Below, piece by piece: positions 35,131 to 55,470 of a stretch of 64,000 nt of DNA. A program made the position numbers and the translations under genes. Source of the stretch: Clostridiales bacterium (GTDB lineage: Bacteria; Bacillota; Dethiobacteria; Dethiobacterales; Dethiobacteraceae); assembly GCA_018335855.1 (NCBI GenBank), contig JAGXRM010000038.1:124001-188000 (forward strand). The letters are read 5' to 3'. The notes under the pieces are model-generated. The model did not search any database. It had not been told where the DNA came from and saw only the letters and a program-made list of their open reading frames with translations. Position 1 is the stretch's first letter, and every line of letters starts with the position of its first letter.

Positions 35131-35406
35131 TGGCCGTGCACCTGCCTTTGGCACTTTCTCCCAGGCGTTACCCGAATAGTTAGCTCAGGCCAGGCCGCCC
35201 CGTGGCACCCATAAGGACTTGCTTACCGCTGCTTCCTTCCGGACCTGACGGGGTTCACAAGCTTACGCCGCACGGGACCCGGCCGTCGACACCACTTTTT
35301 CGGGTCAGACCCTGAAAAACCGGAACCGGGGGCAGGAATTCAACCCTGCTACAGCGGGTTGCAGGTACAGGGCACCGCTACCTCCCCGTCTAGCACGACC
35401 AAACTT
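35131..35406 (-). ncRNA. ffs: Signal recognition particle RNA (large, Gram-positive type)
   Basis: About 275 nt. The 5' end GGTCGTGCTAGACGGGGAGG matches Bacillus scRNA. The domain IV hairpin GTCAGGTCCGGAAGGAAGCA binds Ffh, and the 3' end pairs back through GGTGCACGGC. The Alu domain is present, as in spore formers. Ends are approximate. Confidence 0.95.
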
Positions 35407-35649: not shown

Positions 35650-36318
35650 TTACCCGTGTAATATCGATACCATTTCCACTAATTTTTTCTCTGCCTGAAC
35701 GGAAAGCCCAAATCCGGCCAGGTCTTTCACCAAGCCCTCCGGCGTTCCCAGGCCTGCCACATAGCCATTAATGCGGGCAGCCACGGTAGACGCCACAAAA
35801 TCGTTAACTTCCGGATATACCGTTTGCATTTCATCCTTTAACTCGTCAATCCGCTGCAAGTAATATTTTTGATGATAAGCCTCTGCGAGATAAAAGACTT
35901 CAAACGGCCTGACCTCTGTATATATTTTCCTGCCGCTGTTTTTTTCCTGCAATGCTATACTTTCTATTGCTGCTTTTTCCTGCGCTCCGTTATGGAAAAA
36001 AATAATTGACATGTACTGGACAGGGCGACGCTCCCAGGGTGCATGGTTTACCCAAAAAACCTCTAATAACTCTGTGTATGTAATCGTATCGGGGTCAAAC
36101 TGAACTTGCACCGTTTCCGTATGATCGCCTAATTTACGGTAAGTAGGGCTCTCACTGGTACCGCCCGCATACCCTACACGCGTACTAACCACACCGGGAA
36201 GATGTCCGAACCGGGCATCAGGACCCCAGAATCAACCCATGGCAAAGGTAGCCGTTTCTATCAAAGGCATCACAACGCTGTCCAGTGGTAATTTTTTTTG
36301 TTTAGATAATGGGTTCAT
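35650..36318 (-). CDS. msrA: Peptide-methionine (S)-S-oxide reductase with selenocysteine
   Basis: Reduces methionine-S-sulfoxide in proteins. Conventional translation would give only 180 residues starting after the active site. ATG at 36318, with GGAGG seven bases upstream, opens a frame that reads ETATFAMG, then an in-frame TGA (36232-36234, codon 29), then FWGPDARFGHLPGVV. MsrA enzymes carry GCFWG here, so TGA replaces the catalytic Cys: GUFWG. Everything after it (YAGGTSESPTYRKLGDHTE, QYMSIIFFHNG) is normal MsrA. Selenocysteine MsrA is known from some clostridia and algae. It follows pckA by 61 nt. Confidence 0.9.
36204..36224 (-). promoter_or_regulatory. Candidate bacterial SECIS hairpin in msrA
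   Basis: Starting seven nt past the UGA, GUCC pairs with GGAC around a 13-nt loop (UGAUGCCCGGUUC). Location agrees with bacterial SECIS elements, which lie directly 3' of the UGA. Structure judged by eye. Confidence 0.45.
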
Positions 36319-36379
36319 CGCGTCGCCTCCTCTTGCCTATTATGCTCGTAAACGTCCCGATGTCACCTTCCTTTTTTTT

Positions 36380-37963
36380 CTACTCCTGTCTACTGTCGCT
36401 TAATGGACCAGCCTGCCGAACCGGAGTGGATACATCCTTAAACTTTTGAAAGTTTTTGGTAAAGCTGTCCGCCAACTCCCGTGCTTTACGCTCAAACGCA
36501 TTCTTGTCCTGCCAGGTATCCCGCGGGTTTAATAACTTGTCTGGCACACCGGCAACTTTCTGTGGCACCAAGATGTTAAAGACCGGGTCAGACTGGAATT
36601 CACCATCTTCTATGCTACCGTCCAATACAGCGGAAATAATCGCCCGGGTGTATGTCAGATCAATTCTGCTACCCACACCGTAGGGTCCACCGGACCAACC
36701 AGTATTAATCAGGTATACCCGGGAACCGTGTAAATCTATTTTCTCTCCGAGCATATCCGCATAGACATTCGGCCGCAACGGCAAAAACGGTGCACCAAAG
36801 CAGGTTGAAAATGTCGCTTCCGGTTTTGTTACACCCCGTTCCGTCCCTGCCAGCTTAGATGTATATCCGGAAAGAAAATGGTACATTGCCTGATCCTTTG
36901 TCAGCTTTGCAACGGGAGGCAGCACACCAAATGCGTCTGCCGTTAAAAAAATGACGACCTCAGGGTGCCCGGCCACCCCCGGAACTACCGCACCGGGAAT
37001 ATATTCAATGGGATATGCAGCCCGTGTATTCTCCGTTATTGTTCCATCCTGGTAATCGGCTACTCCGGTATCCTCATCAACAGCCACATTTTCCAGTACA
37101 GAACCATTTTTAATAGCATTCCAGATTTGGGGTTCTTTTTTCTCTGTTAGTCCAATACATTTGGCGTAGCATCCGCCTTCAAAGTTAAATATCCCCCGTT
37201 CGGTCCAACCGTGTTCATCATCGCCGACCAAAAAGCGATTGGAATCTGCGGACAATGTTGTTTTTCCTGTGCCCGAAAGTCCGAAAAACAATGCTGTATC
37301 CCCGTGTTTACCCACATTTGCCGAACAATGCATCGGCAAAACTCCCTGAAACGGCAAGAGATAATTTAGTACGCTGAATACCGACTTTTTTAACTCTCCC
37401 GCATACTCCGTACCGCCGATTAACACTACTTTTTTCTCAAATGAGATAATAATATATGTTTCCGAGTTTGTACCGTCAAGTACGGGATCTGCCTGTAAAC
37501 AGGGGGTGCCGATAATAGTAAACTCAGGTTTGTGTCCCCGCAATTCATCCTCGCCTGGGGATATTAACAACTGGCGAACAAATAGATTTTGCCAGGCGTA
37601 TTCAGTCAGAACCCGAATGGGTAGCCTGTATTTTTTATCGGCGCCGGCATACCCGTCAAAAACAAACATTTCCTGCTGCTGCACATAATCCTGTGCCCGC
37701 TGATATATCTGCTCAAATTTCTCTTGTGATATCGGCCGGTTGTTACCCCAATCGATATGCTCCCGTACCGACGGCTCGTCTACAATAAATTTGTCTTTTG
37801 GTGAGCGGCCTGTATATTTACCTGTCAGAACCCTCAACGCGCCGCTCGCGGTAAGCTCCCCTTCTCCCCGGGACAATGCAAAACTTAAGAGTTTGTCCGC
37901 CGACAGGTTGTAATAATCCTGTTTATGCCCCGTTATTTCTTCCTCAGACAGGTTCGCCTTCAT
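36380..37963 (-). CDS. pckA: Phosphoenolpyruvate carboxykinase (ATP)
   Basis: Interconverts oxaloacetate + ATP and PEP + CO2 + ADP. 527 residues. [39 protein letters not shown] (kinase motif), GDDEHGW and the R-rich [17 protein letters not shown] are typical. The frame could start at 38005, but the ATG at 37963 starts MKANLSEEE, the usual N-terminus, with GGAGGG upstream. Confidence 0.96.
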
Positions 37964-38100
37964 AATAATTAGCTCCCTCCACAACAGCATCCACACGGAA
38001 TGCAAAAAAAATTTAAGATGACCTTTACAAGACGATATTCACATTTTAGCACATCTTTTACATAGAGGAAATATCACGATGCGAAAAATATATAAAAAAG

Positions 38101-55199: not shown

Positions 55200-55470
55200 T
55201 AAAAAAATCCAGCCGCCCATTATTACATGTTAAGGGGCGAAAGGATTTCCTCCGCGGTACCACCCTTATTCTTTCGGCTAAGCCGAACTCAAGGTTAAAC
55301 CTGCTGATAACGGACAGCTCCGGCCCGGCCTACTTGTACTTTCGGGGGGCAGCTTCAGGGGGACTTTCATCCGTAGCGTTTACCGGTTCACAGCTTCCAC
55401 CGGCTCTCTGAAAAACAAATTACGGGTTACTTTCCCTGGCATTGCTGTTTACAAAATAGCGAAAATATTG
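55200..55470 (-). promoter_or_regulatory. T-box leader of the ilv operon
   Basis: The 14-nt antiterminator core AGGGTGGTACCGCGG is at 55252-55266. An AGAGAGCC...GGTG stem I start is near 55403-55412, and the competing terminator (AAATCC...GGATTT, T-run at 55200-55208) follows. A GTC in the stem I loop context GAAA-GTC-CCCCTGAAGC suggests a valine specifier. Uncharged tRNA would favour read-through into ilvB. Confidence 0.9.

Follow-up and report, generated by a model that had tools for sequence, protein, structure and literature searches.

UGA at the catalytic position of a Clostridium oremlandii-type methionine-S-sulfoxide reductase gene in a selenocysteine-using Dethiobacteraceae bacterium

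The methionine-S-sulfoxide reductase (MsrA) of Clostridium oremlandii is a selenocysteine (Sec)-containing enzyme of the 1-Cys type. Its C-terminal helical domain is essential, and the enzyme is reduced by glutaredoxin, not by thioredoxin (PMC4479559, PMC4333827). Its active-site residues are Tyr47, Glu55, Gln89, Tyr90, His137 and Tyr140 (PMC4333827), and its Cys form is active, at a level ~20-fold below that of the Sec form (PMC4479559). The gene described here lies in a stretch of 64,000 nucleotides of a Dethiobacteraceae genome, referred to as the window; there is little doubt that it encodes a selenoprotein MsrA of this same 1-Cys type. The host very probably reads the msrA UGA as Sec.

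The msrA coding sequence (35650..36318, minus strand) runs from ATG 36318 to the TAA at 35650-35652 and comprises 222 codons. Its sole internal stop is the in-frame TGA at 36232-36234, flanked by ...ETATFAMG and FWGPDARFG...; according to the homologue alignment, this codon would correspond to Sec29 of the catalytic G-U-FWG motif. The preliminary description had recognised in this frame an MsrA interrupted by one TGA at the position of the catalytic Cys, and the read-through protein bears this out, matching PMSR (PF01625) over residues 22-156 with 140 bits (E 9e-41; Pfam cut-off 23.7) and scoring above the cut-off of the NCBIfam msrA model (equivalog domain). The good ribosome-binding site that it placed before the ATG is also apparent, as AAGAGGAGG at 36326..36334 (minus strand), 7 nt upstream. 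The 222 residues of the read-through product include zero Cys, and hence zero resolving Cys. Residues 176-222 (35653..35793, minus strand) make up a putative helical domain at the C-terminus, like that of C. oremlandii MsrA, for which the Pfam match to MsrA_helical (PF20939; residues 176-209, E 4e-4) remains just below the cut-off, with 20.5 bits vs 23.7.

The best PDB matches of the protein are 4lwj and its sister entries (E 1.6e-57), with a phmmer alignment spanning query residues 21-199. We take this group, solved by the authors of PMC4479559, to be the MsrA of Clostridium (Alkaliphilus) oremlandii (CoMsrA). The alignment with a known Sec-MsrA that the preliminary description proposed as a check is thereby available, and all listed active-site residues of CoMsrA are conserved in it, as Y60, E68, Q101, Y102, H149 and Y152. 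The window MsrA resembles CoMsrA in carrying a Sec codon at the catalytic site, in the complete lack of Cys and in an equal set of active-site residues, and it aligns with it over the catalytic domain and most of the helical domain. Unlike CoMsrA, it belongs to another bacterium, has 222 instead of 209 residues and a longer N-terminus, and is known here from its sequence alone.

Directly upstream of msrA, on the same strand and separated by a gap of ~60 nt, lies a gene resembling ATP-type phosphoenolpyruvate carboxykinase (36380..38005, minus strand), which we take to be pckA from its sequence; the pckA-msrA order is repeated in G006, a genome of the same family. When the window was scanned for read-through frames of at least 80 codons that contain one TGA and lie largely clear of other long open frames, msrA was the only one out of 15 in which a recognisable protein is interrupted by the TGA; the remaining ones are mostly stops close to the start or end of ordinary genes. 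Downstream of msrA, at 35134-35398, a bacterial large signal recognition particle RNA adjoins a tRNA-Ser(GGA), and a T-box leader is found farther along, at 55230-55451; both are ordinary features.

In-frame stops commonly mark gene decay, and a single base change converts TGC or TGT into TGA, as would be expected if msrA were a dead gene or the base had been wrongly sequenced. This origin of the TGA is scarcely credible and was rejected, taking into account the conservation of the codon, the lack of further disruption and the conservation of the protein. Twenty genomes of the family, the own one included, were searched (order-level searches gave the same 20), and the same msrA was detected in two others, G016 (66% identity) and G006 (52% identity), each with one TGA at the same codon and zero other stops; the other genomes encode more distant, stop-free MsrA or MsrAB proteins, or none. 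In a maximum-likelihood tree, the window msrA clusters with these two copies (support 99/96). On either side of the TGA the frame stays open and is conserved, with low NG86 dN values vs these relatives (0.26 and 0.42; over the whole gene, synonymous divergence is too high to compute). Dozens of more distant homologues share the TGA, and both the full Sec machinery of the genome and the SECIS signal of the homologues speak against a dead gene or a wrong base. The own genome (2.96 Mb, 99.5% complete) was also searched for a second msrA; none was found, and the window copy is thus the sole msrA, accompanied by one MsrB without internal stop. An intact second copy combined with other lesions in close relatives had been considered in the preliminary description as an argument against Sec, and neither is seen in this genome or in G016 and G006.

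A scan with one genome per species yielded 80 msrA loci. The TGA form occurs in at least seven phyla, namely Thermodesulfobacteriota, Nitrospirota, Chloroflexota, Actinomycetota, Myxococcota, Planctomycetota and Bacillota, and the TGT/TGC form mostly in Bacillaceae, Planococcus-like bacteria, Paenibacillus, Pontibacter and Thermoplasmata. The catalytic codon is TGA in 48/48 aligned TGA-form copies vs TGT or TGC in the Cys-type homologues; one locus, L038, carries TGA together with the full hairpin motif, yet is scored as Cys in the codon count and in the tree, and neither alignment A1 nor the synonymous-recoding test includes it. On the tree, at least about five switches between Sec and Cys are required, one of which may be explained by the scoring of L038. 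The statement that Sec-MsrA exists in a few clostridia and algae proves too narrow: it is well supported that this is an already known kind of enzyme with a wider spread than the preliminary description assumed, of which the window gene is an additional member. As a separate observation, the msrA of Alkalihalobacillus bogoriensis (L100:4031) is of the TGA form, has the GUU-loop motif and is nested among Cys-codon bacillar msrA on the tree; a recent Cys-to-Sec change, or losses elsewhere, are possible explanations.

The genome contains the complete bacterial selenocysteine system, for which the preliminary description had suggested a search and whose absence it would have taken as an argument against Sec. 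The selB gene (C20:36950-38824) is located between selA (C20:38827-40194) and selD (C20:35958-36890, minus strand; L019), adjacent to both, and a tRNA-Sec with the UCA anticodon is encoded at C57:22465. Furthermore, selD itself is of the Sec type, with an in-frame TGA in CSGG-U-AAK; the formate dehydrogenase alpha gene has one in ARL-U-HAPTVAG, and two small glutaredoxin genes have it at the first redox position, in HS-U-TYC and KY-U-GPC (L116:1492-1728; L119, TGA at 1528-1530), where the standard code does not read through. Because the machinery genes are accompanied by these four further genes with TGA at a known Sec position, the host is a Sec-using bacterium; the Sec genes listed are a targeted sample of its selenoproteome. 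As in C. oremlandii, a Sec-type glutaredoxin occurs in the same genome as Sec-MsrA. Hairpins with GUU in the loop are found 24-36 nt past the TGA in selD and in both glutaredoxin genes, that of selD having 6 bp and its GUU loop 34-36 nt past the TGA; the hairpin of formate dehydrogenase carries GGUCU.

Bacterial SECIS elements, as modelled in bSECISearch, consist of a stem-loop after the UGA whose apical loop of 3-14 nt starts 16-37 nt downstream and carries G at its first or second position. The SECIS-like hairpin of the window msrA, GAUG-C-CCG-GUU-CGG-A-CAUC (36201..36219, minus strand), agrees with this model: it occupies +13 to +31 nt past the TGA, contains one C.A mismatch, and exposes the apical loop GUU at +21 to +23 (36211-36209, minus strand). 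A hairpin at this place had been noted from the outset, and its existence is backed by covariation among homologues, but its signal is weak when the window sequence is taken alone. Folding of the 60 nt after the TGA gives z = +0.45, which alone is uninformative, and comparison of the hairpin segment with synonymous recodings gives z = -0.87 (p = 0.17), which alone is not significant. Since single-sequence thermodynamics is uninformative, the case for the hairpin is built on the comparison of homologues.

This comparison is decisive and argues for a SECIS element in the Sec-MsrA family. In the 48 TGA copies, the sequence of codons +6 to +9 is, with few exceptions, (T/G)CC C(G/A)G TTC GGG. Gly +9 is GGG in 47/48 copies vs 17% elsewhere in the same genes, Ser +6 is TCC in 34 of 35 cases vs 26%, and Arg +7 is CGG in all 39 cases vs 32%. 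The same freezing was sought in the Cys-codon homologues and none was observed, these codons being used freely; the contrast is repeated phylum by phylum. The frozen codons correspond to a family hairpin, CCCG-GUU-CGGG, with the loop 21-23 nt past the UGA, which is extended by covarying pairs: columns 18/32 are A-U, C-G, U-A or G-C, and columns 19/31 are U-A or G-C. In total, 32 cells changed on both sides vs 8.8 +/- 2.1 after shuffling (0/500 as high), a count that also exceeds slid versions. Compared with their synonymous recodings, TGA copies fold better (median z -2.7; p<0.05 in 75%), in contrast to the Cys copies (median z 0.2; p<0.05 in 3%); the difference is significant by the Mann-Whitney test (p 6e-14, relatedness ignored). 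The signature TCC/GCC-C(G/A)G-TTC-GGG thus provides a cross-phylum SECIS mark that separates Sec-MsrA from Cys-MsrA. Like the Sec-MsrA genes of Thermodesulfobacteriota, Nitrospirota, Chloroflexota, Actinomycetota and others, the window gene has TGA as its catalytic codon, followed by the GUU-loop hairpin. It departs from them in the upper stem, which is CCC/GGG in those phyla: among the 48 TGA copies it alone replaces GGG by GGA at +9, hence the C.A mismatch; the lower stem GAUG/CAUC and the loop GUU are retained.

The codon constraint also bears on whether translation simply ends at the UGA, with only a C-terminal fragment made from an internal start. Downstream of the TGA, GTG 36192 does open a frame of 180 aa, and automatic annotation would start the protein there, past the active site, so that the enzyme would be missed, as the preliminary description anticipated. 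As a biological product, however, such a fragment would lack both the GUFWG motif and its catalytic residue; moreover, the relatives conserve the protein sequence encoded ahead of the TGA, and the downstream codons are constrained by the hairpin only where the catalytic codon is TGA. With the TGA and the protein conserved and no further disruption present, this possibility is very improbable and was rejected.

Collectively, the machinery, the TGA of the relatives and the comparative SECIS signal support the reading of the msrA UGA as Sec put forward in the preliminary description, and the following sequence of events can be proposed. SelD and SelA would produce Sec-tRNA-Sec. SelB would deliver it to the UGA under the guidance of the hairpin that lies 13-31 nt past this codon and has GUU as its apical loop, so that Sec29 is inserted. 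We infer that Sec29 would then attack Met-S-sulfoxide, with release of Met. Because the protein has no resolving Cys, the oxidised Sec would be reduced directly by glutaredoxin, for which the genome offers two Sec-type candidates (UTYC and UGPC).

Sec may not be the only amino acid placed at this UGA, because a second, tRNA-Sec-like tRNA could place Cys at the same codon. This tRNA (94 nt; C32:16609-16702, plus strand; L003:1501-1594) has a GCA anticodon, U73, a long acceptor stem, a long D stem, a long variable arm and an encoded CCA, and its match to the Rfam tRNA-Sec model reaches 55 bits, above the cut-off. It accounts for the second strong Rfam match in the genome, and a second tRNA-Sec was therefore rejected. 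The gene is of the tRNA-ReC type; the work on such a tRNA in Desulfotomaculum nigrificans is reportedly that of Vargas-Rodriguez et al. 2018. GCA anticodon and U73 are Cys identity elements (PMC7609411), and the tRNA thus combines both of them with a tRNA-Sec-like structure. According to a review, the D. nigrificans tRNA of the GCA type works through SelB and translates Sec UGA as Cys (PMC11415595). The two tRNAs are alike in the GCA anticodon, U73, the tRNA-Sec-like fold and the Sec-using genome, the one described here being known from its gene only.

It is conceivable, although we consider it on balance rather unlikely, that the UGA is read by two tRNAs, as Sec via tRNA-Sec(UCA) and as Cys via the SelB-delivered GCA tRNA. 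Sec-MsrA would then be made under available selenium and a slower Cys-MsrA without it, which would extend the Sec reading and not oppose it. Besides the tRNA gene itself and the D. nigrificans precedent, this is favoured by similar GCA tRNA genes (84-98% identity) in three other family genomes, G006, G010 and G018, and by the activity, ~20-fold weaker, of the Cys form of C. oremlandii MsrA (PMC4479559), from which Cys at UGA29 would be expected to give a working but slower enzyme. On the other hand, no GCA tRNA was detected in G016 although it encodes Sec-MsrA, and msrA is missing from G018 although the GCA tRNA is present there; the two are therefore not tightly linked, and their constant co-occurrence is not supported among the 20 family genomes. 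If double decoding does take place, the selenium supply would decide the active-site amino acid encoded by the genome's only msrA, making it a dual-identity gene. Because it combines a sole, UGA-encoded MsrA with a GCA tRNA-Sec-like tRNA, the genome is well suited as a natural test case for the question why these tRNAs persist.

Finally, a reading frame resembling a site-specific integrase was seen by eye beside the gene for tRNA-Sec(UCA) (L002:1-1500), as if an integrative element were attached at selC.
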